Of a stretch of 64,000 nt of DNA, positions 1,514 through 64,000 are shown piece by piece; the first letter of the stretch is position 1, and every line of letters begins with the position of its first letter. Under the pieces are notes generated by a model that saw only the letters and a program-made list of their open reading frames with translations, was not told the DNA's origin and did not search any database. The translations under genes and the position numbers were made by a program. The DNA comes from Diplonema papillatum (taxonomy: Eukaryota; Euglenozoa; Diplonemea; Diplonemida; Diplonemidae): the NCBI GenBank assembly GCA_030068145.1, contig JAPJBO010000448.1:62001-126000 (forward strand), given 5' to 3'.

Positions 1514-3137
1514 CTGTAAAAAGGAGTGGTTGTTATGGTGTGATCCACAGTAGAAACTTAACTTCCCATGAACTTACTAAGAACTTCCCAAGTACACCCC
1601 GAATAGGGTAGAACGGCGACTTCTGGAAATTCTTTGCATTTAGTACCCCAAGTACTTCCCGAGTACACCCCTTGTACACCCAAGTAAGGCCACCGGATCA
1701 TCTAGTGTGAGTTCCGTTTTGTTTGTACGTGCCGGGGGAGGACTAGCTCGTTAGTCAGTGAATATGATCGTGGGGCTAATCTTCTCCCAAACACGCTGCC
1801 AGCGTTCTTTCGTGTTTACAATTGATTGCTACCGGAAAACACGAAAAAGGAGTGTTTGGAACCTTCAGGGACTAGACTAGTCCTCTTGATAATTTTTCAC
1901 CGCGGTGTTGAGTGCACCTCCTTCTTCGTCTCGGGTTTTGCTCGTGAGCGTAGACCAGTGGTTCTTCGGATGGGGACTCTCGTTCCTGTTCCGGTGCCAT
2001 CACAACTTTCTGGTTTCAGTAGTAGTAGTAGTAGTTTCAGCTTAGTGTGAGTTTGATCAAAGTAACGCCAAGGCAGCCCTTATAAAGACCAGCCAACGCC
2101 ACGTGGGTGCAGGCTTTTGATATTAATCAACATGTTTCAAACCTCCGATTGCGCGTAACCTGGAAGCACCCCAGAGGGTGTAGGTGGTACAAAGGTGCAG
2201 TTGCCCGCATCCATCCGGCAATCAGCTCGCGGGGAGGTGACGACTACACACCTGGACAAGGTGTCCTGCTGCCCCGCGTAGTAGTAGTTGGAGCTTGATA
2301 TAGTGTTATAGTAGAATGTGTTGTCTGCCGAAGCAGCCGAAGACAGCAGGCGCAGGGGGCAGGTCTTGCTTTACTTTTCTCTTCTTCGTGGAGACTCCCG
2401 ACTGTCCAATCACGGTCGAGAATGGTTTGCGCCTATTGTGATGAGGTGGTTGACCAGGCCCCCACAAAGCCCGGCTACAACACGAGGATGGATGCAGCCC
2501 TGCATAGGTGTGCAATCAGCCTGGCTGCTAAGCACCCCCCGACCGGTCGATTTGCCACTCTTGTGGCCCTCTATTCGCCGAGCGGTGCTGTCAGGACTGC
2601 TCCGCGTCGCATCAAGTACATCATGCTGGCAGTTGGGGGATCGGCGACCGCAACTCAAATAACGTGCGGTCAACAGGTTTCTGGTTTCAAATAAAAAAAA
2701 AAGGGTTGTGGCTGCTGTACATGGCGCGCCCTGACAGCAACACAAAAACCCTTCGTAAAAAAATGGTGCCACATGGACGAAACAGGCATTGGGGTCTCTT
2801 CGCGGGCACAGGCGCTCTCGACGAGGAACAATACGAAAGGCAGGGGGTTCCTTGTTGTTAGCGACCAACTTTTTAACCCTCGCCATCCTTAGATGTGGTG
2901 GCCGTTTCGCAGGCCCTCTCCGGAATCAAACACTAACTCCCGTTACCCGGTATTACAGCCACGGTAGTCCACTACGCTACCGTCAAAAGCTGTAGGGCAG
3001 TAGCTCTTGCGGGCTTGTACCGACTTGAAGTCGTGTGTTATCACTCGACTGACCTGTGTAACCTGATTACAGCCGATTCCCAGTGACAACACGTGGTAGA
3101 CTTACTCGATGGAACAAATCGATGGACCGAAGCATAC
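1514..3137 (-). other. Intron of the nucleoplasmin-like gene
   Basis: The interval runs from the GTATGC donor at 3137 to the TTTTTACAG acceptor at 1514 (minus strand). It is about 1.6 kb. It contains several short open frames on both strands, a purine/pyrimidine-mixed sequence and an A-tract near 2693, but no motif I recognise. A second donor-like GTAAGT lies within the exon-side sequence at about 3107. Using it would put exon 2 out of frame, which is why the GTATGC site was chosen. Confidence 0.5.
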
Positions 3138-19194: not shown

Positions 19195-19603
19195 CTTTCT
19201 GCACGGGGTCTTCCGACGGCAACGGAAGACCCCTTCCCGCAACCCCTGTTGTTTCGTTGAGAACGCGAGCTTCTCTTTCCCTCTCCATCATTTTGAGTTG
19301 GGCGCGGGCACAACATGCAAGGAGGCCTGGAAGAAATCAGGAGCCGCGGGTAGCACCCGAGAGCGCCACTCACAGCACCTTCAATCTGAGCCCAGACCTG
19401 ACCCGCACTGACAATCCCGCATGTGTCCTCAGAGCCAATCCTTTTCCCGGAGTTACGGATCCAGTTTGCCGACTTCCCTTACCAACATTGTTCTGCCGGC
19501 CAGAGGCTTTCAGCCTAGGAGACCTATTGCGGTTAACGGTACGGCCCGATGCAAGAGAATGAGACCTCCCCTGTTTTTTCCGTGCACATAGAAGGAAGCA
19601 CAC

Positions 19604-20773
19604 CTTGTTGGGTTTGACAACAAGCTCGCCTGCTTCGCATTCACCGGGCGGCATCAGCGGCATGAAGTTGAGAGGACCCCGTTTTGGCAAGGGGCTGAAG
19701 CTATCGTCGATGAGCGACTCGGGAGAGGACATGCCGGCGTCTTCGTTGTCTCCGCTGGTGTTGGTGTCCAGAGTCAGGCCTCCGCCGCCCAACCTGTTGG
19801 AGGGGATGAGGGGTGCTATGTCACGGTTGAAGCCGACGCCGCTCGCACGCGTCTGCGACCGCCTCAGCATCTGCGCGTCGACAACCGCCGCAACGTCGCC
19901 CGTCGAGCTGTGCTTCCTCTCGGCACTCACCCAAGGGCACATTCTGATGTCGTCGATCCCGTACCGACCCTGATCGTCCACCCGCTTCCAGTCCTTGTGC
20001 ATGCCCATCTGCACGACCTCCTTCGCGGGCTCAATGACCGCCGGGTCCGTCGCAGCCTCCGCTCCATCCGATGGAGGCAGCTTACCAGTCAGCATAAAGT
20101 ATAAGACGGCCGCGCACGAAAACGCGTCCGCTTTCTTGCCGTGGTATTTCTCGCTGCCCCGGACTTCGGGTGCCACGAAAGCCATTTGGCTTGCGTCTTC
20201 GATCGCCGGGCGGGAGTCGAGCAGGTCCTTGCTGCTCTGCAAGCACGCGTCGGAAAATTCGCCGAGTTTCACGTTGGCGGTCTCGTTCTCTTCGTCCAAC
20301 AGGACGGTCCAAGGGTTGATGTTACGGTGGGCGAGTCCTTTACCGTGCATGTAAGAGACAGCGGATAGCAGTTGGTTGAACAGCCGGCAAGCAACCAGCG
20401 GGGACAGCTTGCCTCCGTTCTTCTTGACGAGCTTCGCCAGGTTCGAGGTACATCGCTCGGTGACGATGTACGTGTGGCCGTCTGATGCAAATACTTGGAA
20501 AAGCTTCATCACGTTTCTGTGGTCCAGGAGCTTCAAGACGCCGAGTTCTAGGTTCAAAGAGTCTTCAATCTCCTTCGCGTTGGGCTGCGAGGCGAGTTCA
20601 CTCCGGATGATGACCCACACGTTCATTTCGTTTTCGTCGCGGTCGGAGGCGCTCTTCACCTTGATGCAGCCGTACTTCTCTTCGAGCGTGTCTCCCAGGG
20701 TGAACACCAGCTCGTGCGTCCTCCGCGCCCCCGGCAGCGCGACATTGAACGTGATCACATTCGACTCCGACAT
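19604..20773 (-). CDS. AMPK/SNF1-like pseudokinase, exon 1
   Basis: Exon 1 encodes 390 residues from ATG at 20773 (one base after a TTTCGCAG acceptor-like site) to an AAG|GTGTGC donor. A protein-kinase fold is clear. There is a glycine-loop region at residues 25-40 (FTLGDTLEEKYG, glycines mostly lost). The strand VWVIIRSE at 52-59 has Arg57 in place of the VAIK lysine. LELGVLKLLDHRNVMKLFQV at 75-94 fits helix C and the following strands. The catalytic loop is HRNINPWTVLLD at 149-160, so HRD is HRN and the following Lys is Asn. VKLGEFS at 168-174 replaces DFG by EFS. FVAPEV at 199-204 retains APE. With the ATP-binding Lys, catalytic Asp and metal-binding Asp all substituted, it should be inactive as a phosphotransferase and act as a scaffold or allosteric partner. 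Closest overall pattern: the SNF1/AMPK/CaMK group. Confidence 0.75.
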
Positions 20774-20909
20774 CCTGCGAAACCGCAACTCTCCCCCCCC
20801 CCAACGCTCCCCTCCCCGCCCACCTGCACCCCTTCTCCGGACACCCCCAGGCGCTACCCGCGCGCGTCTTTCTTCCTGCTTTCTTCGCAAGCCCCGCTTT
20901 TCGCCTGGA

Positions 20910-21735
20910 TTGCCTGCCTCCGGTTACCCGCCCACCCCGGAAGGCGAAGAGGTGTTCTTCTTTTGTTTCTTTCGGGGTTTTTGTTGTTTTTTATGATCGT
21001 GTTCTGCGCCGCTTTGCTCTGTTTCTTTGGCGTGGTCTGGAAGGTTTTGCTGGATGCAGACAAGACGTACGGTGGAGGAGGGTGCATTTGAGCCGGTCCA
21101 CCTGCTGATAGACCGCTGACTGAACCTGAGAGTTTGGGTGTGAATGCAAAAAGAATCTGTGGCAATAAAGTGTATCGCCGGCATCGCTATTATCTCTTCG
21201 CACGTGATGGATCATGCTTTCGCCTCTTCCGCTCGTCTTGATCGTCGCGTTCAGGCGCGCGTTTGGTGCTTCGCTTCTCCTTCGACGTTCATTGGTTGCG
21301 CGTCGATAGTCGCTTCCTCACGGCGCTTGGGTGATGGCCGTGTTGTCTTCTGTGGAGCTGCCGAGGTTGATCGTTCCTCCTGCTTTTTTCGCAATCCCCG
21401 CTTTTGGTTACCCGCCCACCCCGGAAGGCGAAGAGGAGTTCTTCTTTTGTTTCTTTCGGGGTTTTGTTGTTTTTTATGATCGTGTTCTGCGCCGCTTTGC
21501 TCTGTTGCTTTGGCGTGGTCTGTGGAAGGTTTTTGCTTCGGGGCGTTTGATGTTCGTTTCGCTGCGATAAGCACGCTTTCGCCTCTTCCGCTCGTCTTGA
21601 TCGTCGCGTGCAGGCTCCTTCGACTGCTCGCCCAGGCTCATTGGTTGCGCGTCGATAGTTGCTTCCTTACGGCGCTTAGGGGATGGCCGTGTTGTTTTCT
21701 GTGGTGCTGCCAAGGTTGATCTGGTAGACTATGAT
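20910..21735. repeat. Two-copy duplication upstream of the pseudokinase
   Basis: A block of about 130 bp (GGTTACCCGCCCACCCCGGA to GGCGTGGTCTG) occurs at about 20923-21042 and 21407-21527. A second block (GCCTCTTCCGCTCGTCTTGA to GCCGAGGTTGAT) occurs at about 21222-21370 and 21581-21721. The blocks alternate, so the segment was duplicated once and then diverged. It lies immediately upstream of the pseudokinase start. A short related word (CATCGCCGnCGTCGCGG) is found again on the minus strand at about 38245-38280. Confidence 0.7.
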
Positions 21736-30395: not shown

Positions 30396-32176
30396 TTTCT
30401 TTTTTGGGTCTGTTGTCCTTTGCCTTTAGTTTCCACTGGTGCGGGGGGGAATCTTAGTTCAATGTTTAGACAGGACGCTGCCTCTCATGCACGGAAGCAA
30501 ATTTTTCGTTTGTGCGATTTAACAGCTGAGAAGACAGCCCGCAGTGCTGTGGTCTATCCTGCTCCCGTTCTGAGCCGACCTCTGCAGGATTTCGTCTCTT
30601 TTCCGGGCCGCTGCCTGCCCCCACCTCTGTTCGTGCGATCGGCCTGAGAAAACCTCGATGCGTGGTTCCCCGCCCGTCACAACTGCGAGCACCCTCGGCC
30701 GGAGGTTTTGAGCTGGAACGGAAAGAGAAAGGGGACCTAACGATGGCGCGAGGCTAGGTAGCAATTGCCCGAAGAAGGGGGTGCAGCGAATGGTTTGAGT
30801 GGCCCCGACGAAGAAGAGAAGAAGTGCGTAGTTTTGTTTTATTCTAGAAGAAATATGAAAACGGGTTGAAAAGTCCGCTCCTGGTCCAGGAACGTGACGG
30901 TCAACCACAGCGTGCAAAGCTTGAGTCGCAGAAAAGGTCAGCAGTTTTCTGGAACTGCAGCAGAATAGTTATGTGAAGATTCTTCTAGATCGGGACTTCT
31001 GGCACTGGTTCTGGGGAGGAAAGGAAGGTCAAGAGCGTTTGCGGTGTTCTCCGTCAGATCGGTTGGACTGTGCTTCTACGGCTGGCGCCAGAGCTTGCTA
31101 CAAACGGTAACCCCCAGTGTGTCGAGCAGCAGGACGCTTGCCGCCCCCTTTGGCTGTTTATTTTAGCAACACACACACAATCTTATGGGCTGCTCTGCGA
31201 TGGATCGAGGAGAAATTCGTGCAAACAAAAGACAGAACAGGTCGCACATTGTAGACAAAAGCAAAGCATCTGGCAAGTCCTATACCATAGAAGCTGGTGG
31301 TGTGGCATCCATTCAATACAATACACTGTTTGTGTACACCAGCGTCACACTTACACAAACAGTAGATGTGTAAGTGGAAGAGAAGGTGTGCAATTATTCG
31401 TGCACGAATACATAAACAGAGGCCGATCCATCCCGCGGTATTCGAGGTTGGCATGCAGAAGCCATGGCGATGGTCTACTCACGGTTAAATCAAAAAAGAG
31501 ACAGAACGAGAAAGGGAAACAAAGACAACCACGATAGGTTTGTTTGATGATCATCACCGATTACTGGCGTCCAGTGGGTAGAGGCGTGGGAATGGGGTGG
31601 TCACTAACTGTCAGAGGTCTCGCTCAATCAAACAAACCTTCCACCCTAACCTTACAGTTCTCCTAGCTTGCAGGGGTCTAGAGGTTGACGCAGCTGTACT
31701 GAAGCGCCACCCTACCCCCTACATAGAAGAAGGGAGGGTACGGTAGGCCAAGGAGGAAGAATTTGTTTGATTCAATGAGCGCGGTACTTGCACCACTGGA
31801 AGCCATGTTATTCTTTAAAGCGCGGGGTTTGTGGAGGATGTTCATACAGCAAAACTTGAAAGGACACGATCGTTTCGATGTCTTGTTTGTGATGGGTTAC
31901 GGGATTGCAGGGGAATGGATGTGCTCCGCTATCTGCACCGAGGTTCGGTACACGAGGCAGAGACAGGAGAGCATGTAAGCCTGGTTTCTCCCAGTACCGC
32001 GCAACGAGAGCACCAGCACTGGGATATTTGCAGTACACGAACAGAACGGATTGGCATACACTTTCTTGACGGGCTAGGTTACTACGAAGAGAAGAAAATA
32101 CAATGTGCGTGTATAGTTAACTTTATTGTGATTTGGAGGTTCGGTGTCTTAGGTCTGCGACTATTGAGACTGGGAG
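30396..32176. other. Gene-free stretch between the Cys-rich gene and the retroelement
   Basis: An R2 fragment (minus) lies at about 30860-30925. Bases 32128-32205 share the TTTATTGTG...GGGAGTCAGGTAGTGAAAGG block with 48527-48572. No reverse transcriptase coding is present where the rest of the retroelement ORF2 would be expected. No host exon is recognised. Confidence 0.5.
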
Positions 32177-34228
32177 TCAGGTAGTGAAAGGGATGCATGT
32201 AGTGAAGACCTCTTCCAGTGGAGTTGAAAAGTGACTAGTCTCCAGCAGTCCGGCCATGGCTGCGTGGCTGTCAGTCACCAGTAACGACGGTGGTGGTGGC
32301 TGGGTCCAAGGAAGGCGTTTGCACATCATCCACGGACACGGCGACATTCTCGCTTGCGGCCTCCAATGTCTTTTAGCTGACGTCTTTATCCCCCGTCCCG
32401 TACTTCTTCCCCTTTCTTCCGCAGGGATTCCGAAGGCATCCTGCAAGTACTGCTCACTGACTCGTGACCACTCGAGCCAGGCCTCTTCCGCTCGCTGTGC
32501 TGCCAGCCGTTCCGCGAAATCGGAGTTGGCCAGTCTCTGTACGGCTTCCCTGTAAGCTTCTGTGTCCGAGAGGCCCCACTTGGGTCCCCGCTCCGTAGAG
32601 ATTTCCCGCGGTACTTTAAATCGCCACACGATTTGGCGCAGCGCCGCAATGTCCAGGGTCATTGTCACGAGCCGGTGTCCCGGCACGTTCACCGCGGTGG
32701 TGACGCATTGGCGGAAAGCTCCCGTCGTTATTCGGTTGAGGAGTATGCGGTCGATCCTCGTGCCCGATGTCCGGGCGCTGGTAAAGGTCGGTGGCGGTGG
32801 TGTGTCGGTACGTGCATGGTGCAGTTCCGCTGCGTCGGACCATCCATTCCTTAGTGCCTTCCGCAGTACAGGGGACCGGTCTTCTTCTGTGTTCAGGTCA
32901 CCCATCACCATTATGGGGACGTCACCGAGGCTATCCGCCGCTGCGAAGAGGATCTTCTCCAGCATGTCCTCACGCTCTTCGCTCTCCGCCCTCCCGTTTC
33001 CGGAAGGGCAGTAGACATTGAACACGTGCACGAACGTGTTGCCGGCCCCTGTTGCTACTACTGTATGGCTCACTCGGTCCGGGGACCGTATTGCTGCGTG
33101 CGAGAGCGCCGTCATCGTATCGTACGCCGGTATCGGTCTCAGTACTAGAGTGGAGAGCCCTCCGTTCGCGGCGTTCATCGTCGAGCGACTACCGGAGTTC
33201 CTACAGAGTCTTCCGGGTGGTGGCAGACCCCAGTGGCAGCACCATTTCCGCAGGTATTCCTCCGCCTGCACCCGTTTGCACGGAAGGAGTGTCACCTCCT
33301 GGCAGCAGAGAAGATCCGCTTCCACCGCGTCGGCCGCTGGGAGATACTGTAGTAGGTTGGTTACGTTTAACGTCGCGAACCTCATCTCCGCGCGGCCGGG
33401 ACCAGGGTTTTGTTCGACGTCCCCCGCGGTTATCAGCCGCTGTCTTGCTGATTCTTTGATTGATTGTAGAGTTCTTTGGTGATGAAGCAAAAGTGTCCGT
33501 GGCGCGGGGCTGGACTGATGTTGGGGGGGTGCAGTGGATGCCTGAGGGCTGGGCGGGGGGGGTATGGGAGTTTCTTGCGGGGTGTCCCGGCCTTGCAAAC
33601 TTTGGGAGGCGGCCTCGCGCACGGCCCTGTAGGTCAGCGAGACCCGGTCGCGTGCGACATCATCGGGACGAATCCCGTGTGTCCACAGGTTCCTGGCCTC
33701 GCCTTCCATGTGGCACAGTGTGCCGACCGGCAGAGGGGTTCTCACTCTCCGGCTCCCCCTCTCCCATTCCATGACCGTGTCGCTCAAGAGCGATATGGTC
33801 GCTACCCTCGGACCCAGTTCTCTCTGGTCTTTGTGGGGGTTGATCCCCACTCCCCTCCGGTACCAGTTGGCCAGCAACTGGTCCGGTTCCCACCCAAGGC
33901 GGTCACGTATGAGATCCGCCGCTTCTTTCAGGGGCCCCTCGGGGATACCCCGTTCCAGTCTGATCGGGGGTTCACCTAGTCGATAGGCGTGCCCCCACTG
34001 CTGGGTTTCCCTGCTGTGTCCACCCCCCAGCCTTCCCCATGGGGCTTCCGGGTTGAGCTCGGGTGCTCGGCTCAGTCTATCCAGAAGATCCCGAGGGATC
34101 GCCTGGAAACTTAGCCCCGGGATGGGTCCCTCCACCCTGGCGGGGGGGCCCTCGTTGCAAGTTGGCCGGGCACACTGGCTATTGTAGGGGGATTGTTTGT
34201 GCGCAAAACCGGGCCCTCGGGGTATCAC
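32177..34228 (-). mobile_element. Non-LTR retroelement ORF2 fragment: AlkB dioxygenase - 2A - APE endonuclease
   Basis: This is an open frame of about 683 codons; its true start is unclear because no early in-frame ATG is obvious. An AlkB-like 2OG-Fe(II) dioxygenase occupies residues about 30-205: NWYRRGVGINPHKD supplies the HxD iron ligands (His132, Asp134), LWTHGI the second His (184), and DRVSLTYR the two 2-oxoglutarate-contacting arginines (195, 201). A proline/serine-rich linker follows. Then comes a 2A sequence, AGDVEQNPGP (residues 268-277; 33398-33427), which causes ribosome skipping before its last Pro. Residues 283-530 are an exonuclease-endonuclease-phosphatase fold: TLNVTN, CCQEV, NVYCPSG, VMGDLNTEE, GTRIDRILL and PGHRLVTM. 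The normal SDH motif is PGH, so the Asp is missing. After about residue 613 the frame degenerates and no reverse transcriptase follows. The element is 3'-truncated. Confidence 0.82.
33398..33424 (-). promoter_or_regulatory. 2A ribosome-skipping site
   Basis: GDVEQNPGP is a complete match to the D(V/I)ExNPGP core of 2A sequences. It lies exactly between the dioxygenase plus linker and the endonuclease. Translation would release an AlkB-bearing protein ending ...NPG and start the endonuclease polyprotein with Pro. 2A sites upstream of the endonuclease are known in trypanosome L1Tc and ingi elements and in some animal non-LTR elements. Confidence 0.85.
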
Positions 34229-34432
34229 TCCCGGGCGATTGAGGCCAGACGCGCCGTGAGAGAGAGGGAGGGGAAAAGAAGAGGAGCAGGAATTCTCTTT
34301 TTCCGTCTCTGCGTGATCGAACTGCCTAGCAGGGGTGCTAGGACTCGGCAGCCCGAACGAGGGCCTCGCGCGCAGGGCAACCCGTAATGGGCTGGCGGGG
34401 CCACTGGCGCCGGGTGCGGGCTGTGGAGGTAG

Positions 34433-34870
34433 TCAGCTCGTGCAAGTCTTGCACGCGCTGACGTCGCAGCCCTCGCATTCCAAGCGAAGCTGACCCTTCG
34501 CCTTCTTCTTCCTACACACGCCGCAGGTGTAGCCGGCTGCGGCCTTTGTGGGGGTCCCGAAGGCGTGGACGTGCTCTGCACCGTCCATCCGGGCGTCGCT
34601 TCCCGCGGGAGCCGGCCCGTCCCCTGCCGGCTCCGGCGTCTTCCTCTTCTTCTGCGCTGCCGCGTCCGCTGGCGGGGCCGCTGGCGGGGCCACTGGCGGG
34701 GCCGCTGGCGGGGCCGCTGGCGGGGCCGCTGGTGGGGCCGCTGGTGGGGCCGCTGGTGGGGCCGCTGGTGGGGCCGCTGGTGGGGCCACTGGTGGGGCCG
34801 CTGGTGGGGCCGCTGGTGGGGCTGCTGGCGGGGCTGCTGGCGGGGCTGCTGGCGCTGCATTGTTAAGCAT
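34433..34870 (-). CDS. A/P-repeat protein with terminal Cys motif, probable retroelement ORF1
   Basis: This 145-codon frame starts at ATG 34870. Residues about 5-65 are APPA/AAPP repeats encoded by a 12-bp minisatellite. A basic AQKKRKTPEP segment (possible nuclear signal) follows. The end is CGVC, 12 residues, CEGC, 4 residues, C, 2 residues, C, that is C-x2-C-x12-C-x2-C-x4-C-x2-C, likely zinc-binding. It stops about 205 bp before the open AlkB-2A-endonuclease frame, on the same strand, which is the position of ORF1 in non-LTR elements. A basic, zinc-binding protein fits the nucleic-acid chaperone role of ORF1. It could instead be an unrelated host gene. Confidence 0.5.
   Translation of the reverse strand: MLNNAAPAAPPAAPPAAPPAAPPAAPPVAPPAAPPAAPPAAPPAAPPAAPPAAPPAAPPVAPPAAPPADAAAQKKRKTPEPAGDGPAPAGSDARMDGAEHVHAFGTPTKAAAGYTCGVCRKKKAKGQLRLECEGCDVSACKTCTS
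34672..34856 (-). repeat. 12-bp minisatellite coding for AAPP
   Basis: About 15 tandem units of GGGGCCGCTGGC/GGGGCCGCTGGT (plus-strand reading) form the A/P-rich part of the frame above. In other frames it gives equally regular peptides (HQRP, GGAA), which are artefacts. Confidence 0.9.
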
Positions 34871-35322
34871 TGAGTTCTTTTAAGTACATGAACCACATGG
34901 ATTAGCACGCACTGTTGTTAAGCAGCGGCTGCCAAAACTTGCCGTGACACAAAAAACGAAACACTGCATTTGCAGCAGCAGCCACGAGATGATCTTCTGT
35001 CAGCCAGTTGGATTTTATCGACTGCTATTCAGAAGTCTCGCAAAACAAACTCAAGGATAGCAACAGCGGCTGCCGTTGGTTGCCGAAGTGGCGGTAAGAT
35101 GCCCCGTCTATTCGGACTACTGACTACACTAGCTGGGTCACAGAAGCGACAAACGTCTGGGCGTGAGCTTTGCGCACGTACACAGCGGCGCGCCTACCTG
35201 TGTGTCTGGGCTTTCCGCCGCGTGAAGCCATGCAGCGATCTTGGGCAGGCAAGTCTTGATGGGAACTTAAGCTTTGCTTACACGGGAGCCTCAGCCTTTC
35301 CCTCGGCATACATCCGATCCGA

Positions 35323-35412
35323 CTCGTATGCGAGAATGATTCTCGCATTCTCGCATGAAATTCTCGCATATTCTCGCATGCGAGAATGATACGAGTGAAA
35401 TGCGAGAATGTG
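35323..35412. repeat. Palindromic array of ATTCTCGCAT words
   Basis: At least seven copies of GCGAGAAT or its complement ATTCTCGC occur in alternating orientation, including ATTCTCGCATGCGAGAAT. This is comparable to the GCATACG and GTAAACG arrays, but no terminal inverted repeats were found around it. Confidence 0.8.
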
Positions 35413-35564
35413 TAAACCACTGAAAACCCATGGATTTGACCCGTCCGACAGGAATACCAAGCGAAGATAGCAAAATAACGAAATAAGTCTACTTTGCAGC
35501 TGGCACTGTATCTTGCTTTCAGGTCACACAACGTCGCCGACAACAACCCAGGTGATTCACACAC

Positions 35565-39268: not shown

Positions 39269-40989
39269 AGCAGGGGTTGCCTTGTAGCCCGTACCGGTCT
39301 GTTGTCCGCGTTTATATGTATTTTCTCGCAGTGTGGTGTTTGGGTTTCGCGGCACTTGCGGTGCTTCACGTGGTGCGGGTTGTTTCCGCCCTAAAATAAG
39401 GTTTTTCTTGGTCCGCACAACAGACCTTTTATGACGTTTCTGATCGCGATGAGCTCCGAGCTCCAATGAAGAGAACCGTGAAAAATAGACCCGGGGACCA
39501 AAAGTTATGTGCGTGGTTCGTGGGTCTTTACCAGATGCGGGGCACCGGGCATGGTAACTACAGGTTTTCATTGGGAAGGACGGGAATCGACCCACTGGTT
39601 GGTGACATTTCTTTGCTGGCCCCATGCAGCAGACCTTTTTCGGCGAATTTGTGCTCACGTTCAGCTCCGATGAAGAGAAGCGTGGAAAATGGACCACAAG
39701 TTACGTGCGTCTTGCAAGGAGAAGGGAGTTCCCGCGGGATCCGGGTTTGCGGTACTTTTTTCCATTTCTTTTTCGGGAAAATTGCAGGATCGGCACGCCG
39801 AATACAAGACCTCTACCTCTTGTATTCGACCCCCCCCCCCCCCAGTAAGAAAAGAACATAAAAAACACACGTTGTGCACAGTGGCATCGGAGACCACGGG
39901 AGCGGCGCAGTCCTCAAAGGTGAGGGACTCGAAGCGAGGCTTGTTGCACTTCATCAGTCGCACGCCGACGAGACCGCGGAGCTGTGGGGGTCGTCGTTAT
40001 TGGTGCTGGTTTTGAGGGATAAGGAAAAGGTAAGAGATCTTTTTGCGGTGGCCTCCGCTGGTCTGGTAGTTTGTGCTACCTCCTTTTTTTACACTCGTTC
40101 TCTTCTCTACTCACTACTGTACGTACTTTTTCACTCTTTTACGAGCTGTGGGGGGGAAATCTTAGTCTAATGTTAGGCAGAGCACTGCCTCTCATGCATG
40201 GTTGATGCTAGCATCCAGTCTTGAGAAGAGGGGAGTGTACGGCTCCCAAAGTGGGGAATGAAACCTTGAGGGACTAGCCGGGTTGCGGAATGTTCACGCA
40301 TTCCCTTTCGGCAATCCTGCACGTCCGAGCAAGCTCGTCAGTGGCAGCTTTGAGGCGAGCAATTACACCTTGCCTTAGGACCGACTGACCCATGTCCAAT
40401 TGCTGTTGACACGGAAACCTTCTCCACTTCGGCCTTCAATGTTCTCCATTGAATATTCGCTACTACAACCAAGATCTGCACTCATCCACGCTCCATCGAG
40501 GCTCACGCCAACGACTTCGCGGCGTGGACCACGCACTCCTACGCACGCCTGGCTTTGTGATACCAGTACGCGGCCAACTATGGGTGGATCGCTTGAGCAT
40601 CATCCATTTTCGGGACCGGTGCATTCGGCAGGTGAGTTGTTACACACTCATTATCGGATGCCGACTTCCATGGCCACCGTCCTGCTGTCAAGATGAACCG
40701 ACACCCTTTGTGGGATCTGATGAGCGATCACTCGGACACCTTAAGTCAGCTCTCGGTTCATCCCGCGTCGCCAGTCCTGCTTACCAGAAGTGGCCCCCTG
40801 TGTTTTTTTCACCGCGGTGTGTTGTGTGCACCTTCTCATGTTTCGCTCTTGAACGCAGACCAATCCAAAGCCAGAGCTCATCAGTGGGTCCTTTGGATGG
40901 GGATTTTCAGTCTTGTTCCGGTGCGAGCACAACTTGGTTTCATGAGTTTTCCTTCCTTCATTCGTTTTTTTTTAGGTGAATTTCCCTTA

Positions 40990-53783: not shown

Positions 53784-54278
53784 GGGAAAATCTTAGTTTA
53801 ATGTTTAGGCAGAGCACTGCCTCTCAGGGGGGGTAGTTTGGGGTGAATGAAAGAAGGGGCGGGACATCAGTCCCGACCACCCTCTTCACCCAACTCACCG
53901 CGCCCGACCTGTCGAGTTGCTTCGGCATTTTTGTTGAACGCTTACGCCCGCCACTAAACCCAGATTCACCTGTGTTTCGTGTGGGCTACAGCACATTTAC
54001 CTCCTTTGATCTTTTGCAACTGGCAGTCTCCTCAAGCATATCCTACAAAGCAGGTGCTTATACAAGAATAGTTGAGTTGCAGCTCTTGACAAAGATAGAT
54101 GAAAAAAAGAAGGTGTTTTTATTCTTCGCTTTTTCTCACGAACGGGGGGGTCGGTCCTACTTTTGGCTTTGTAGGTTCTCCCGACTCCCCAATTCGTGGT
54201 CAGCACAAACTCAAGAGGTCTAGTCAACTATTCCCTGCAGTATTGGCATACTTTCAAAAAAAAAAAAAAGGCACACAC

Positions 54279-57200
54279 CTCCTGCGCCACGCGCGTCGCG
54301 TCAGCGACGAGCTGCGCGACGATTTCGGTGGTGGTCGCTGTGGGCACCGCGAGCCTTCCGTCGCGGATGGCATCGGCGACGGCGTCGAGCAGCGCGGCCT
54401 TGCGGCCGCCGCTGATGGCCCGGTCGGTCGGGGCCGCCGCGTCGAGCGCCCCCGCGGATCGGCGCCGTGCGGTGCCCGACAGGGCGGACTGCTGCGCCTT
54501 GAGGCTGAGCACGCGGAACACCGAAGACACCGCTGCCAGCATGTCGCCCCCGCTCAGCGCCGCCGGGTTGTCAAGCACGCCGTCCACAGCAGCCGACAGG
54601 TGGCCCTCCGTCAACGCCTGGGAAGTCACCACCGCGGTGGTCGACAGCGTCGTGGACTCGCCGTACGCGTCGTAAACGGTCACCAAGAACTCAACGGCAC
54701 CCATCCGGCCAACGTAAGGCGCGACGGTTTCGAAGCTCGACGACGCGAGAGGCGTCGCGGTGTACCGAAACGTCGTCTTTTTCTGCAAGCTCGTCGTTGC
54801 GTACGCGAACGAGAACGACAAGTCCTCCGCGCTGTCGTCGGTCCACGCCGACGCCTCCAACCGGATGGTATCGCTCCCGCCAACTATAGACGCCGGCGAG
54901 GCTGCCACCGTGGGAAGGACGCCGATCTCCCCTGGGGTTGGCGGCCTGTTCATGTTGATGACCACGGTCGCTTTTCCGGGGGCTGCGGCTCCTGGCGCGG
55001 TGACGGTGAGGGTGAAGGTGTAGGTGCCGCGGAGCGCAGCGGAGGGAAGGATGACGAGGTTTTTTTGAGCCGCCCCCAGCAGGGTCTTGGAGAGGTCGAC
55101 CGTTGGCTCGCCGGCGGCCGTCCATTCGAAGAGCAGCTCGGTGTCGGGCACAGACGCGGACACCTTCGCTAGCAGCTGCAGCTTGGTCGACGGGTTGTGC
55201 GTGTTCGGCGGCAGCGGCAGCCAGCCGGCCGTCGGCGCCGCCGCCTGCACGATCTCGACCACAGGCGCCGTCCCGGGGATGATCTCGATGACGACTTGAG
55301 CGCGCTCAGACACCAGCCCCCGCTTTTTGGCGGCCACTGTGAACAAGAACTGGCCCGACGGCAGCTCTGCCCCGCCTTCGACGGCGTAGACGCCGTTGGT
55401 ACCGGCCTGCCCAGCGCACTCCGCTCGGGAGCCGGTGCTGCGGCAGACGAGGGACGTGCCGCCTAGGGCGAAGGACCCTTGGCAGCCGCGGTCGACCCAC
55501 ATGCCGCCGCCCGCCGCGCCGCCATACGACTCGTGGAGTGTGCATGTGCCGGCTATCGTGGCTTGCAGCGTCGGGTTGAACGGGTGAAGGGCCCTGAGCG
55601 GGCACTCGCCGAGGACATCGAGCTGGCACACCGTCCACGCGAACACGAAAGGCTCGGCAAACCCGTTTGGGTCCACTGACGAACGGGCGTCGACGCACAG
55701 CTGGCAGCCGGAAGCTCCCGGCAGCGAAGGGACGATCCGTTCGCCGCCGGTGATGACGGCGACGAGAGGCTCGACCTTGCAGAACACGACGATCGTCGTT
55801 TCGACCAGGTTTTCCGGGCGGAGCGCCGACGTGGTCGCCAAGGTGAACGCGTACCCCTTCCCGGGCTCCAACACGCCCGGTGGCACAAAAAGGCTTGGCG
55901 TCGCCGCAGAGGCCCCCAGCTCGACAGCCGTGTCGTTGCAGGCCCACCGGTACCGCATCGCGGCGCGCTCCGCCGGCGCCGCGGCCGTGAGGTTGCCCTC
56001 GCTGCTGCAGCGCGACGGGCCGGCGAGCACGTGGAGGGTCGTCGTCAACGACCGCCGGGCGGTTCTATATAACGAACCGACCACCTCGACCCTGGGGTAC
56101 GGCAGATCGGTGACGAATACAGTCGCCGATGCGCTGGCCTGGCGGTCGAAGATGTCCGTCGCGACGAGCACGAAGGTGGTCCTACCTTCCGGCACCGAAC
56201 CTGCCTCCAACGTCATCCTCAGCGACGTCGCATTCGCCAGCCGCGACGACAGTTCCGCGAGAGCGGACACGTCGGCACTCGTGCTACGGAGGGTCCAAGC
56301 GTATGCAGGGGGGGTCGGTACGGTGTGCCGCGACGCCAGCCCGTCGAGCACCACGTCTTCGCAGCTGCCGACCACGACCGGTGCGGACAGCTTCGGGACG
56401 GGCAGCGCCGTTACGCGTCCTTTCAACGCGGATGCCGCGCTGTGGTCGCCTCGCCCGCAGTCCGGGCGCTTCGCGTCCTCGCAGGCTCGGTCCGCCACCG
56501 CGCCCGGCTTGACCGCAAGCAGGTCCCCGATCCTCACCGCTGCGTACGCGGCTAGCTCCACCTTCATCGCGGAGGCACTGGTCCAAGAACAGGCGGCGCC
56601 CCGCCCGAAGGCATCTGCCGCCACGAAATAGCTCTCACACACCGTGCGGAGGTCCCCTTCGACCGCCCCTGCGCCTTTGTCCGTCGGCCGCACGAAAGTC
56701 GCCGTCAAATAATCGCCGGTGGCAGCCATGACGAAGGTCGGTCCGTTGTGCACGCGGGATGCGTCGGCCAACACGGTGAGCGAGTCGGAAACCGGCGCGA
56801 GCGACGTGCTTTCGGAGGAGGCTTCGGCGGAAACGGTGAGGTTCGCCTCGTACGCCTTGTGCACGCCGACGCCGAAAAGCAGCTCGACCGGATCCTCGGA
56901 CGTGACGTCCGCCACGACGCACGTCACCTTCAAAATGTAGTCTGCCTGCACTGCGTGACACACGCCGTCCGGCCACGAAATGAACCCGTTTTTCCCTTCC
57001 GACGTGAGGGTGACCTCGACGAACGGGGAAATCACGACGCTCCGGGGTTCGGTCGCGCGGAGCAAGACCGAGAACGTGCCGCCCAGCTGTGAGTACGTCC
57101 CGTTCGGGTTCGCGACGGAAATGGTGAGGACCGGGGTCGAGACGTGGTAGTGCGCGGCGGCGGTCTGCGGCGGGAGGTTGCCGCAGGTCAGCGCCGCGGC

Positions 57201-60200
57201 GAACGACACGGCGCCGGCGGCCGTCTTGTTGTGCGCGACGCCGAACGACAGCTCGAAGTGCGACCCCGGTGGCACATCCGCGTCGATGCACCGGACCACG
57301 GTTGCGGACACCGCGACGCACCACGCGAAGGGCAACCGGGTGTAGTACGCGCCCGTCAGGTGGGCTTCCAGCACAACGCCGCCAGCCCACGACGGGCCCG
57401 AATTGTACACGTGCACTTCGTACTCCCGCAAAGCGGTGTACACTTCGACCGACGAATTGTGTGCGACGGTGTGCCACAGCTCGGGCGACAGGACCGGGAG
57501 GACAGCGGCGAAGCTGCGGTGGTCTGCGCCGCGGTTGTACGGGATGAAGGCGGATCCGCGTACGGAGATGTTGTGCGCGGCGCCCCGCGGCACGAAAACG
57601 TCGAACCGGATCGTCGTTTCGCTTTGGTTCGTGGCGGGCGGCAGGCCCGTGCAGTTGATCGACGATCGCGCCTTTTCGCGGCCGGGCGGGGAGGAGAAGA
57701 GCTGCGACTCGCCGTCGCAGCCGCCGCCCGCCGGCGCGGCCGCGACCGCCGCGTTGCCGACGAGGACGCGCAGGTACTCGACCCGCGCCGGCACCGGGCC
57801 GAGGTTCGCGATGACAACGGAGAACGAGTAGTTCCGGCCCGTCGGAAGGCTCTGAAGCAGCTGCCGCGGGGACACCAAACGGACGACCGCCTCCGTCCGA
57901 AGTGCGGTGCAGTACGCGGGCGTCTCGGCGCACGCGTCCACCGTGACGTCGGGGTACTGCGAGTCGCTCGCGTTCCCCGCCGTCCCGTGCTGCACCCGCC
58001 CCGTCACCACGACCCGATCGTCGGCCGGGGAGTCGACGAACACAGTAAACGGATAGTCGTTGAGCACGCCGGCGGGCAGCATCCGCCACCGGCAGCGCAG
58101 CCCCGCGCCCGCAGCGCGCCGCTCGCAGCCGGGCGGTGCGTCGTAGAACACGGACCCTTCGGTCGCCTCCAACAGCACGGTGACGACGTCCATCGCGACG
58201 TTCCGGATGTTCAACGTGTACCGCTGGACGGTCCCGTACGCGGACTGTTCTTCGGCGTGCAGCGACGCGTTGAACAGGCTCGGTTCGATCGTGACCGTTT
58301 TGACGGCTCGGTTGTTCCCAGGGGGCGGGACTTGCCCGATTTGCAGTTCCGCCGTCTTGTCGACGACGTACGTGTCGGTGATGACGGTTAGGTCTCGAGT
58401 TGGTGAGACGGCAACGTACGCCACCCCTTGATACGTCAGGGGAACGCCGTCGGGAGGCACGTCGATTGACCTGCACGTGACCTCGAAAGACGTCGCGTAG
58501 CACTCCTTCGGCAGGGAGTACCCCGGGAGCGAGTCACGGGAGAGCTGGATGCCGGTCTCGGTCCCTTGCCACGTCTCGACCCCGATCCCGCTCCAGATCG
58601 CGTCGTCGGCGGAGGCCGGCGCCGCGGCGGCGGGGAGGGCCTCGCGGGCGGCGATCGAACCGCGAGGGAAGTCACCCAGCAGCTTGACGGACGTGTACAT
58701 CGACACGTAGCTCGGCCCGTAGTTGACGACCTGGATCGAAAAGGGGAAGAGGTGGTCGGCCGCGGCGTAGCTCCGCGTGACCGTCTGCACGGCGACGTCG
58801 CCAAGCTGCACGCTGAAGCTCCGCTCCAGGCTCGGCAGGAACTCGCCGGGAGGCAGATTCGCGGTGCTGCCGTTGGCCGACATCGCGAGGGACCCCCGGA
58901 AGGTGCTGTTGACCAGCACGCTGAACACCCGGGTCGACTCCGCCCCCGGCGCGACGTCGCCGAACCAGCAGAACAACGCGTTGGGCAGCAGCGGGTGCAG
59001 GGCGCACCCTTCGGGCAGCGGCGGCGACAGGGCGCCACCCGACGAGACTTGGATGCTGGCGTTCGCCTGCGAGACCCAGCCGGCGCCGTCGTTGTGGAGG
59101 GAGAACGAAAATGGTGTCGCGAAACCGGCGGACAGAACCCGGGTCTCGACGAGCGAGAGCCGGGTCTCCGACGCCCCGACCGGGAAGGCGACGGTTTCCT
59201 CGTTGAACGTCACGTTCCCAGCGTTGCCGACGCTCGCGGTCACCCGGAGCGTGAACTGCCCCCGCGCAGCCCGCGAGGGGGCGAACGCAACAGTCCGCTC
59301 CGCGGTGCCGCCCGCCGGCACGTCGTCCAGCTCGCAGACGGCGGCGGCGGTGCCCGCCAAATAGCATCCGTCGGGCAGTTGGTCGAACGTGCCCGGGTCG
59401 GCTTCGAACCGGAGCCTCGGGGCCCCCCCGGTGTACGCGCCGAGGTTGGCCAACCGGCCGACGGCCAGCCGCCGGACGCCCGGCTGCACTTCCGTGAAAG
59501 GAACCGGGAACGAGACGGTCCCGGAGACGTCGGTCGGCACGACGCGCAGCGCGGTGGTCGTGGAGACCGCGGTGACCGCGGGGGTGTACAGCTCGTAGCT
59601 CACGATCGACACCTCGACGGAGACGGACGCCGTGATGACCAGCGGGATCACGAGGGACATGTTGGCGACGCCTTCGTACGACTGCGCGTTGCACACGACG
59701 CTTGACGCGGTCTGCTGCGTGCACCAGCGGTTCAACGGCGGCGAGGTCGCGAGCACAGCACCGTCGAACGCGATGTCCAGCAGCAGCTCGGCGTAGGAAG
59801 AAGTCTCGGACAGCGTCGCGACGGATACGTTCACGTTTTGCGCGGTGTTCGGCTGCAAAACGCTGGTGTTCTCCGCTTTGATGATCAGGTCCCCGTCGTA
59901 CACAACCAACGCCTCGGCGACGTTGTTCGAGGACGACGTGTCGAGTGTGTCGGCGGTGACTTCCGCCGTCAACACGGCCGAAGCCTGGACCAGTTTTTGC
60001 GCGGACGGGACTGCGTTCGAGACGAGCGTCCACGTCTTCGCGGAGTTAGGGGGCATTGAGGCCAGCAGGCACACTGTGGACGACGCGTCCGCCGCGGTAG
60101 CGCACTCGTCCGGCCACACCGCAAACGTCGCGGTCTCCACCGACACGGCGACTTCGACGCCCGCCGCCCACGACGAGCCGTGCTCGTTCTTCACGGTGAC

Positions 60201-63200
60201 CCCCCACGAACAGCTGCCCCCCCTGGGGCACGTCCCCGCGCCTTGCACATCCACCGAGACCTCCCCCGGGGCCAAGACCAGTGCCGGCACCTCTGCCACC
60301 TTCACCACCGCCGTGCCCAGCACGACGAGGTCTGCGGTGACCTGCCGCACAGTCGTCGCCCTGTTCGACACATTCGCCTCCAACCTACCCACCTGAGGTT
60401 GGTCGGGTTGGATCGTCCCCAGGTAGCATGTCCAGACGTTCGAGCCCAGGACATCGGGGACGCAATCGTGGGGGCCTAGGTTCGCGACGGAAAGGTCTCC
60501 GAAGGAAAACGTAGCGTTCGCTTGGTAGGCGAACGAGTTTTCTTGGCTGTTGGTCACGGTGTAGGTGTAGACGTTCCGCGTTCCCGCGTGGACGGTGGCG
60601 GGGCCGTCAATGGCCATCTGCACGAGAGGCACTCGGGTCGGGAGCATGAGCGACACGGTGTTGTCGCCGGGGGTTTGCTCTGCGGAGGCCGTGGTGACCG
60701 CTGCCGTGAAGTTGACGGCCGGCATGAAAGTGCCCTCCAGTGGCACACGCACGGGAACCGAGACGACTTCTTTCTCACCGGGGAGCACATCTCCAACGGA
60801 GCACTCCAGCACCGACACACGGTCGCTGAGCGTGACGGTTTGGTCTGGGAACACCGACGGATCGCCTGCAACGCACGATTGGTGCGGGTCCGTTAGAGCG
60901 CCGGAGACGACGATGTAAAGAACCGTCGCAGCGGCCTTGTACCCACCGATGCTGCTGATCGTGACTTCGAACAGCGAAACACCGCCGACCGGGAGGCTGC
61001 TGTCGGATGAAACTGAAATCGTGAGCTCCGCTTTCGACACCGCCGTGAACGACGCGACGTGCAAATAGCTGGCGGTCGGGTTGTCCGCGACGTAGCAGAC
61101 GGCGTACCGATACCCCGAGGTGATCTCGTTGTTGTACTCCACCGTGGCAACGTCCGCGGCGGCCGAAACGGATGTGAGCTGTCGTTCGTACAAATTCGTC
61201 ACCGCGCAAGGAGCCGAGGAGTTGTCATTTGTCACGAACACGCGGTCCGTTGAACTCAGCGCGGCCCCATACAACACGATCGTCAGCGCTGTCCCAAGCA
61301 ACGGCGGGTCCGGCACAGTGGCCACCCTCTGTATGCCGCCCTTCATGACCAACGGCAGGCCGACGTGGTGCCAACCGGTCGCTGTCTTCGCGCAGATCTC
61401 GACCCTGCCGGCCTGGAACACCGACAAAAACCCGATGGCCACCCCTGCAGGCTCGTCGGCGGGCTTTTCGATGGCGACGGCCGTGCCGAAGCCGCAGGGG
61501 GTGTACGCGGAGACCCATTGCAGTTGAAGTTCGCCGTCTGTCGGGGACAACCCGTCCCACAACGACGTGAGCGTCACTTGGATGAGCTCGCCGGCGATCG
61601 GTTCGGGCGGCAGGATCGAGTAGTCGGTGGCGCCGTTGTCGAGGACGGTCAGCAGGGATGAGTTGTAGCGCTTCCACGAGTTGTCGCCGTGCCGGTAGCA
61701 CACGCTGTACAGCCCTGTGGTCGACGGGGCCGTGATGGAAGCTGCGGGCATCGTGAATTGTGCAACGGTGTCGGGCTGGTCTGTGCACGCTTGGCCGTAG
61801 GGCACAACGTTGATGAAGTCAATCCTGCCTTCGCCGCCAAGGGCTTCGCCCCCTATGAACTCGATGCTGACGGCATGCGACCCGCGCACGATCGCCGTGG
61901 GGTAAAAAGAGACAGGGTACGTGACCACGTCGAACGCGTCCCCGAACGGGTGCCAGGTTTCCCCCCCGACGGAGTAGCACATCTGAGCGGTCATCGTCGT
62001 GCGGAACGGGGTGACTGCGCGCGACCAAGAGTCGGACCGGATTTCTTCGACGAAAACCGCGTTTTCCTCGGAGTTGCCCTCGCACGCCAGCGACGAGGGG
62101 ACGTAGCTGATTCGGTCCTCGGGACCGGCGGGCAGCCCCTTCTGCATGAACCCCACGCCGGCGACCATGAACGTGATCGGCTCGGACGTGACGATGTCCG
62201 TGGGGAAGTAGCGGAAGACCTTCGCCCTCCTCCGGTTGATCCGGAGAAACGGCGGCACCTGCTGCCACACGGTCGCGTTCCCAGCCGCGCCGACGGACGC
62301 CCGCAGGTAGCACAACGTGACGTCCGCGTACATTTTGTCGAAGAGCAGACCATCCACCTCGAGCGTCGTCGTCCCGGCCATGAGCCCCGACGCGAGGCTC
62401 ACGACATCCCCCACAACGAATTCAGGGATCCCGGCGACCGAACCCGGGCACAGGTTGTCCAACGAGTACGTGACGCGGTCGGCGGTGGTCAGGTCGGTCC
62501 CTGCGAAACTGACTGTGACCGGCGTGTTGGCGAGGGGCTCGTCGACCCCTTCGACGGTGTACGACGAGATCCCGTTCGAAATGATGAACACGGTGTCCAC
62601 CCCGCGCCACGGCCGGCTCCTGAACTTGTAGCAAACGAGGATGTCCTCAGAAGGAACGACCACGCTGGCAACCGGGAGAGTATCTGAAGGTTCGAGCACA
62701 GGCGCAGCGTCGATGATGTCCGCGGCTGTGCAGTTTTTGTAGGCGGGCACGTATCCGATGAGGTCGTCTCCGTAGCCCGTGGAAAGGTACTCGCCTTGCA
62801 AGAAGAGAATGCGAGCCGTGGACTTCAGAATGGCGTTCGTCGGGAGCACGGCGGTCGGGATCTGGGTCACGTTGAGGGTGGGACCGACCTGGTGCCAGAT
62901 GGTCGCTGGGCCGGAGAGGCGGAGGCAAATCCGGATTTGCTGCGCCGTCGAGACGAACACCGTGACGTGCAGCTGCGTTTCGTTGACCTTGCTCCCGATA
63001 GCAACCGCGGACGCCTGCCAGTTGTCGAAAGGCGACGAACCGGAACACGACTCGGTGCCCGCGATGACCGCGATCATGTGCCGCCACGGTTCGTCGCCCA
63101 GGGAGTCGCTCAACAGCACCGCCTCCGCCAGCGAACCCGCCAGCAAATCAAGCAGCCCGGTCTCGCCTTTTATCCCGTCGACCACCTGCAAAGCAGATCC

Positions 63201-64000
63201 TACCTTGAACCACGACCCTTCGAACACCTCCGGGGCCTCTCTCCGCACCCTGTAGCACAAGTTCATCTTCGGCGCTCGATTCGCGAACAGCGAGCAGGTC
63301 CCCCACGTGCTGTTCACCAGCACCGGTGCCCCGACGCGGGGGAACTCCTCTCCCGCGGCAGACTGCAGCGCTTGGTACTCCGCCTCGCAGTCCTCGTACT
63401 GAGCGACGAGCAGGCAAATGTCGCTGCTCGCGTACTCAACACCGGGCTCCCCCACGTGCGACAGGCCCTGGCCCGTGATTTCGAGCGTGACTGTCGACCC
63501 GAGGATGACGATGCCGTCCGTTTTGTAACCGAGCGCCTTCGGCGCGATCACATTCAGCGGCGAGCCGACCTTGATCCACGGCGAGGCGGCGTCGCGCTTG
63601 TAGCAGACGTCGACGTACGCTGCGAGCGCCACGGTCAGCTCAACCGAGATGTAAGTCGAGTTTATGACGGTCGCCGCCCGCGCGTTCTGGGCGTTGCAAG
63701 GGGTTAGCGTCGGGACCCAGGAAACGGTGGTCTCGGAGCTGGTGGTTGGGACTGGGAGGGAAAGGGTGAACGGGTTGTTCGCAAACGGGTTGCCTTCGGG
63801 AACGTGGTACTCGGAAGGCCCGGAGGTGTGCACTTCGAACGTGGAATCGAGGAGCTTCCAAGGGAAGGACTTGTATCGGTAGCACAGTCGGTACGTCCCG
63901 GTCGTGGACGGGATCCACAAGGCGGCAACCGGTCTCGTCGCCGACGCTTCGACGAACAACGCCCTTCCACCTTCACACGTGCCGCCGTCGAGAACCATGG
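54279..64000 (-). CDS. Giant REJ/GPS-type surface receptor, exon 1 (5' end beyond window)
   Basis: A single open exon of over 3,240 codons enters from the right edge and ends at GCGCAGGAG|GTGTGTGC. Residues 1 to about 980 (counted from 63998) hold about ten modules of roughly 100 residues. Each ends in a Cys-Tyr strand and a Trp (YRLCYRYKSFPWKLL, VDVCYKRDAASPWIKVG, ILVCYKFRSRPWRGVD, AQMCYSVGGETWHPFG, YSVCYRHGDNSWKRY). About 980-2430 are CARDB/DUF11-like beta domains (for example LPGEKEVVSVPVRVP, NRWCTQQTASSVVC). About 2530-3130 form a REJ-type region (SCEDVVLDGLASRHTVPTPP; CQLCVDARSSVDPNGFAEPF). The last 110 residues run into a GAIN-like part. REJ regions occur in sperm receptors and polycystin-1. 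A secreted or surface location is inferred; the signal peptide is outside the window. Very high GC keeps the opposite strand open in places. Confidence 0.78.

Follow-up and report, generated by a model that had tools for sequence, protein, structure and literature searches.

Why does a retroelement endonuclease of the marine protist Diplonema papillatum share a reading frame, across a 2A site, with an AlkB-type dioxygenase? Is this order an accident of one locus or a property of a mobile element, and what might an AlkB enzyme contribute to it? The locus lies in a stretch of 64,000 nucleotides (assembly GCA_030068145.1, contig JAPJBO010000448.1 [C448], positions 62001-126000), which is called the window here. 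Genome searches were performed over the 271-Mb assembly.

The window copy and the full element

The frame containing AlkB, the 2A site, and the endonuclease (EN) encodes 751 amino acids (aa) on the minus strand (34432..32177 in the ORF listing of the window). The original prediction had placed it at 34228-32177. Instead, the frame opens directly after a TGA at 34435-34433, with the tail of an upstream ORF1 in the same frame, and only its portion down to 32369 is part of the element. An ATG first appears in frame at residue 221, downstream of the HxD motif. The Pfam profile PF13532 matched residues 178-269 (E 2.9e-12, 47.7 bits vs a cut-off of 31.2) and PF03372 matched residues 359-567 (E 7.8e-9, 36 bits, also above the Pfam cut-off). 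The predicted AlkB signature was complete (N189-x-Y191, H200-x-D202, H252, and R263-x5-R269). The APE-like endonuclease was recovered as predicted, as was a perfect 2A core, DVEQNPGP, between AlkB and EN (residues 338-345, window 33421-33398) with a Pro-rich linker ahead of it. The pattern D(V/I)ExNPGP occurred once in the six frames of the window and did not turn up when a 5-kb stretch was shuffled 2000 times by mononucleotide and read in three frames on one strand.

Compared with full copies, homology to the element spans approximately 34858 to 32369 of the window. The final 192 bases of the frame, past 32369, resembled none of the copies fetched, and tblastn with P0001-P0010 found no reverse transcriptase (RT) piece in the window. 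By this comparison, the window copy has lost both ends and represents a fragment of a high-copy non-LTR retrotransposon (Table 1). The first nine protein relatives found with the window frame were all from D. papillatum, as were the three found with the AlkB part alone, among proteins of 413-1314 aa.

Table 1. Features of the element copy in the window (positions are those of the window)
Feature	Position	Strand	Basis
5' flank: copy of a repeat that precedes many element copies	34862..34950	-	Similar to sequence upstream of other copies
ORF1 C-terminal fragment, Ala/Pro repeat and zinc-binding-like tail (CGVC..CEGC..CKTC)	34436..34858	-	Homologous to the ORF1 tails of L018, L019, and L023-L025
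TGA CTA joining ORF1 to the AlkB frame without a change of frame; putative readthrough stop	34430..34435	-	TGA CT in 27/27 readable junctions
Spacer, open in frame, weakly constrained	34139..34429	-	Omega 0.5-1.2 between families
AlkB-type 2OG-Fe(II) dioxygenase domain	33617..34138	-	PF13532, 47.7 bits; omega 0.14-0.24 between families
Pro-rich linker	33479..33616	-	Omega 0.4-0.8 where measurable
2A stretch SIKESARQRLITAGDVEQNPGP	33398..33463	-	AlkB/OTU swap point just upstream, near 33469
APE-type endonuclease	32603..33397	-	PF03372; 97.5-97.9% aa identity to P0016 and P0003, both of which continue into RT
Beginning of the EN-RT spacer, cut off; without RT in the window	32369..32602	-	Homology to full copies stops at 32369

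The window has other contents. Fragments of LSU and SSU rRNA lie at 40213-40900 (-) and 2882-3101 (-), and the part of PMC10161547 available to us reports approximately 3600 scattered 28S pieces in the genome. An open frame of 3256 aa (54228-63998, -) runs off the window, with a REJ domain above the cut-off and a PKD-like match below it, and a protein kinase domain (93.5 bits) was found at 19370-20923 (-).

The genome search with PF13532 scored 150 of 250 candidates, all 150 of which were above the cut-off. Of these 150 rows, at least 64 had open frames 1,980-2,046 aa long, and most of the 64 fell into sets with identical scores; approximately 25 rows with higher scores and the five that score like L028 were of other types or unsorted. 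Twenty loci were fetched. AlkB, 2A, and YADDA were present in one frame in 19 of them (L009-L027), and the twentieth, L028, is a different element. The order in full copies is ORF1, TGA-CTN, AlkB, 2A, EN, and RT. Four families were compared, namely, A (L009-L012), B (L013-L016), C (L017-L020, L023-L025, and the window), and D (L021 and L022); the ORF2s of their representatives are 2002, 2046, 2007, and 1992 aa, respectively. An ORF1 tail lies upstream of ORF2, in frame, in L009-L025; it is open over 42-191 aa in L017, L018, and L020 and over 364-770 aa in the other 14 of these 17 loci. L025 exceeded the cut-offs for PF03372 and PF00078 and scored 45.1 bits with PF13532. Judging from its domains, the element is an APE-type non-LTR retrotransposon with an Exo_endo_phos EN and, downstream in the same ORF, an RT. 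ORF2 stops with TAA, followed by a shared 3' end, in 16 of the 19 loci; L014, L019, and L020 end early with TGA, and the window copy is without a 3' end. Copies truncated at the 5' end were also observed (L026, L041, L044, and L045). No relatives were found in the viral contigs searched. Rfam gave three weak matches below the gathering scores in the element (31500-35500), which were discounted, and none in five full loci or in L054-L056. A Presenilin match in ORF1 (E 5e-4, below the Pfam cut-off) was discounted because it falls in a Gln-rich stretch.

The Fe and 2OG ligands of AlkB were conserved in all 20 loci. Omega for AlkB was 0.14-0.24 between A, C, D, and the L028 type, with bootstrap upper bounds of 0.24-0.46. 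In five comparisons excluding B-C, omega was 0.13-0.20 for EN, 0.03-0.08 for RT, 0.4-0.8 for the AlkB-2A linker, and 0.55-1.2 for the stretch ahead of AlkB. The AlkB omega of 2.03 between B and C is based on very few changes (dS 0.008), and this pair is too close to be informative. These estimates indicate that AlkB is under purifying selection, approximately as strong as that on EN. The low omega and the conserved ligands indicate that AlkB has been retained as an enzyme, similar to EN. The original prediction had asked whether AlkB-2A-EN-RT is a conserved order under purifying selection and whether the HxD, His, and Arg residues are kept among copies, and the genome-wide loci bore out both points. 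It was also correct in placing an AlkB-type dioxygenase, a perfect 2A core, and an APE endonuclease in one retroelement frame, but it had missed ORF1, TGA-CTN, the module swap, the spliced leader, and the truncation of the window copy.

The nearest solved relatives of AlkB by sequence are ALKBH8, which is the closest, and fission yeast Ofd2. The structure predicted for AlkB, from one job with two sequences, was of low confidence (pLDDT 53.7, pTM 0.56). Foldseek with this low-confidence model gave Ofd2 as the best match (E 5e-3), followed by ABH8, with no match at E <=1e-3. Two further sites, L008 (C65:452923) and C166:25894, had equal PF13532 scores in frames of 1767 and 2986 aa. The AlkB of L008 shares 44-49% identity with those of the retroelements, and the available part of L008 is without another Pfam domain; this type is perhaps a third carrier.

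AlkB and OTU-like modules ahead of the 2A site

The Gln form of the 2A pattern, D(V/I)EQNPGP, was found at 231 sites in the genome, and a reversed-pattern control at 0. Among the first 100 of the 231 sites, 57 pair by coordinates with a listed AlkB and four with a listed OTU. Twenty of the remaining 39 were fetched, of which 13 had AlkB or part of it (rearranged in L032), one had OTU, and six had neither. These six appear to be 5'-truncated or broken near the linker, the AlkB end, or 2A. The original prediction would be refuted by copies lacking the AlkB part, and it was contradicted to some extent by these six of the 20 examined sites, the copies with an OTU-like module, and the P0004 family.

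In P0002, an OTU-like domain is joined to a 2A-EN that is 99% identical to that of the window. A genome search with this domain scored 150 of 849 candidates, and many matches among the 150 were in frames of 1845-1856 aa. Two OTU copies, L029 and L030, were 98.6% identical to the window over 33469-32369 and did not match it upstream. As aligned, the switch between AlkB and OTU is sharp and located just ahead of 2A, and marks a swappable cargo slot. We named the module OTU-like only because its match to PF02338 was below the cut-off of 23.3 bits (18.7 bits in P0002 and 20.5 bits in L028); DGxC and HY motifs were recognized by eye, and the best solved match was OTUD3 (E 0.012).

The proteins of families B and C are 97-100% alike from AlkB onward, with different ORF1s, and the D-type ORF1 is 84% like that of C and 28% like that of B. 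The P0004 family (L051 and L052) has a type-B ORF1, TGA CTC, and, ahead of 2A, a basic stretch without AlkB. Across the sequenced copies, AlkB is not universal, the OTU and P0004-type families being without it. Since OTU replaces AlkB and the P0004 family is without it, AlkB is dispensable for retrotransposition as such. The presence of a protease-like module in the same slot of close relatives points to helper enzymes that such elements can acquire and exchange.

Two observations concern other arrangements. L028 (1-9780, C641), also represented by P0010, is a second kind of retroelement with an N-terminal AlkB, an OTU-like domain, and RT; its C-terminus resembles a restriction-type endonuclease by eye. 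The protist transcripts P0022 and P0028 encode related 2A-EN-RT proteins with approximately 90 and 10 residues, respectively, ahead of 2A, where Pfam finds no AlkB. The cargo-free arrangement of P0022 and P0028 may be older.

Spliced leader and the ORF1-ORF2 junction

An identical stretch of 38 nt is located at the 5' start of five of the 20 loci (L016, L021-L023, and L025). Its last 11-15 nt begin four more loci, and L028 has 17 nt of it in its upstream part. The letter preceding the 38 nt varies among the five loci, and the sequences after it differ. We take this 38-mer to be the diplonemid spliced leader. It occurs 480 times in the genome; among 100 listed places, those on C66, C164, C240, C317, and C372 include some that are 0.4-1.3 kb from 5S rRNA genes. 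The accessible text of PMC10161547 likewise locates a 39-bp D. papillatum leader with 5S genes, and this co-location supports the identity of the leader. In family D, L021 is without the 42 nt between the leader and GACAAACACC that are present in L022, as expected from a second splice acceptor. The position of the leader at the 5' ends indicates that the copies bearing it were probably made from trans-spliced mRNA. Dinoflagellate retrogenes are known to carry leader remnants, as described in the part of PMC12014239 consulted.

The flank repeat is abundant, and a 38-mer from it (34866-34903) had 2742 genome matches at <=1 mismatch. This repeat precedes many loci, and the same sequence is also found after the 3' end of the element. 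Its presence at both ends may reflect a preference for certain sites, accompanied by long duplications, or a 3' tail with the sequence of the target.

TGA CT was present at 27 of the 27 readable ORF1-ORF2 junctions, with ORF2 continuing directly in frame and the other surrounding letters varying among families. These junctions were from L009-L025, L036, L038, L042, L043, L049, and the window (23), the OTU copies L029 and L030, and L051 and L052; many are near-identical copies, and independent lineages number approximately five. The junctions of L026 and L027 (5'-truncated), L031 (broken frame), the second partial copy of L018, and the other partial copies among L031-L050 were unreadable or different, as were those of L053, with TAG and other upstream sequence, and L028, with TAG and its own ATG. 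We rejected the 2832-aa frame of L027 as a merger of ORF1 and ORF2; its upstream part resembles the ORF2 end of another copy, and it has no bearing on the stop. UGA-CU is a leaky stop context. Since TGA-CT alone separates ORF1 from an in-frame ORF2 at every readable junction, readthrough of TGA-CTN is likely. RNA folding after TGA gave no common signal in four families (z -1.4, -0.9, -1.9, and +1.8 against mononucleotide shuffles).

Readthrough is not the sole possible route because a Met follows early after the stop in some copies, namely, at residue 32 in family A (4/4), residue 6 in the OTU copies L029 and L030 (2/2), and residue 17 in the D copies L036 and L042 (2/6). ORF2 may instead begin by reinitiation or at a non-AUG start after the ORF1 stop, and AlkB would then be a free protein. 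In the portion of PMC5972666 available to us, SART1 is given as a case of reinitiation, and the same mechanism is proposed for LINE-1. However, no ATG precedes the AlkB core in B (4/4), C (9/9, including the window), or D (4/6), the first ATG of ORF2 is approximately 20 residues past the HxD histidine in L013-L025 (13/13), and the frame stays open through the weakly constrained spacer. We regard this route as possible but doubtful.

Possible roles of AlkB and related elements

We lean, with modest confidence, toward a readthrough scheme in which AlkB demethylates the RNA of the element. A part of the ribosomes would pass UGA-CUN and produce an ORF1-AlkB fusion; the chain would be released at 2A, and EN-RT would follow as a protein of its own. 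Through its ORF1 part, AlkB would be held at the RNP of the element, where it may strip base methylation from the element RNA and thereby aid reverse transcription or evade a methylation-based host check. An AlkB carried by a retroelement can demethylate RNA, since that of an orchid Gypsy element removes m6A from RNA in vitro, according to the accessible part of PMC9289625. The substrate may be other than element RNA because the closest solved relatives are ALKBH8, a tRNA enzyme, and Ofd2. In a wider and distinctly speculative extension, which we doubt somewhat more than reinitiation, 2A would be a standing LINE cargo slot, leaky-stop ORF1 fusions would bring AlkB or OTU-like enzymes to the RNP, and AlkB would clear methyl marks that block RT or cause silencing from spliced-leader mRNA, perhaps as far as the modified cap region. 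Such a reach would be consistent with copies that retain 38 nt of a leader reported as 39 nt.

The main rival explanation treats AlkB and OTU as interchangeable counter-defence cargo that acts in trans on host factors or RNA, with AlkB erasing marks and OTU removing ubiquitin, rather than helpers of reverse transcription. AlkB and OTU occupy one slot ahead of a 98.6% identical 2A-EN, L028 holds both AlkB and an OTU-like domain, and the P0004 family has neither module. The shared slot is compatible with demethylation in the RNP as well as with action in trans; however, no host target is known, readthrough would bind AlkB to ORF1 and suggests action in the RNP, and the OTU match is below the Pfam cut-off. 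We consider action in trans to be a real but rather unlikely explanation. AlkB enzymes also act on single-stranded DNA, and AlkB may repair alkylated cDNA or target DNA or remove a DNA mark at the insertion site. AlkB is not known to act on 5mC, which argues against action on DNA. When the window copy was compared with L017-L019 and L023-L025, CpG transitions made up 5-7 of 9-18 differences, but against L020 they made up 0 of 2, and the observed/expected CpG ratio of 0.89 in the element (1.02 in the window) indicated little depletion. Homologues of 5mC methyltransferases are reported for the genome in the available text of PMC10161547, which favors action on DNA, whereas ALKBH8 as the closest solved relative by sequence does not. 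We judge action on DNA to be improbable. An unrelated AlkB gene placed next to a 2A-EN fragment by chance or by chimeric assembly would fit the window copy alone, which is cut at both ends and without RT. We rejected this explanation as extremely improbable because the same order recurs genome-wide, at dozens of loci on separate contigs.

Taken singly, the components have precedents: non-LTR elements are known with 2A and with proteases, and AlkB is known from an LTR element. AlkB-bearing viruses are mostly plant RNA viruses, some of which also carry OTU, and viral AlkB lies within the replicase without 2A-EN-RT, unlike the D. papillatum element. They are similar to it as mobile genomes that carry AlkB (PMC544882, seen in part). 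NeSL/Utopia are non-LTR elements in which some families have an N-terminal cysteine protease; the protease is Ulp1-like rather than OTU, the elements are of the RLE type, and no AlkB or 2A is described in the accessible text (PMC4640811). Helentrons combine OTU and an AP-type endonuclease in one mobile element, but are described as rolling-circle DNA transposons with Rep-helicase (PMC6431247, in part), in contrast to the retrotransposon of D. papillatum. The orchid element Gypsy_Pa_2799 is also a retroelement with an acquired AlkB; however, it is an LTR element, its AlkB is a separate ORF nested among ALKBH5 homologues, and no 2A or swap is described in the consulted portion of PMC9289625. The D. 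papillatum AlkB is in frame with EN-RT, which follows a 2A, and is accompanied by an APE endonuclease, which is not the orchid-type LTR arrangement. To our knowledge, the L1Tc/ingi elements of trypanosomes have no AlkB or OTU ahead of 2A, unlike the D. papillatum element. They have RNase H in ORF2, a feature of their clade, whereas Pfam gave no RNase H match in the ORF2 of L025 at E up to 1. Their Pr77 promoter and unspliced transcripts, as given in the available part of PMC8190864, differ from the spliced-leader starts of the D. papillatum copies. They are alike in having a 2A ahead of the active proteins of an APE non-LTR element in a euglenozoan host (PMC4981915 and PMC5972666, citing Heras 2006, as far as the accessible text shows).

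In a literature search that left out Repbase and most subscription papers, neither a non-LTR element with AlkB nor an AlkB/OTU exchange was found, which is not proof of novelty. The TGA-CT junction, the AlkB/OTU-like swap slot, and the spliced leader at the starts of several copies are new here. The results also call for caution in annotation: the AlkB of at least one annotated D. papillatum gene model, P0005, which is labelled as a tRNA methyltransferase, shares 76% identity with that of the window. The genome paper draws an inference from "a dozen" AlkB homologues (PMC10161547, in the part available), and this inference may be affected by retroelement AlkBs.

The D. papillatum element offers a naturally occurring, high-copy case of an AlkB enzyme that selection has kept inside a LINE. 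Controls are built in, as nearly the same 2A-EN occurs with an OTU-like module and relatives have neither module. This system would allow tests of whether the methylation of transposon RNA limits retrotransposition. The present results also suggest 2A as a joint for module swapping, readthrough as a link between ORF1 and ORF2, and the retroposition of spliced-leader mRNA in diplonemids.
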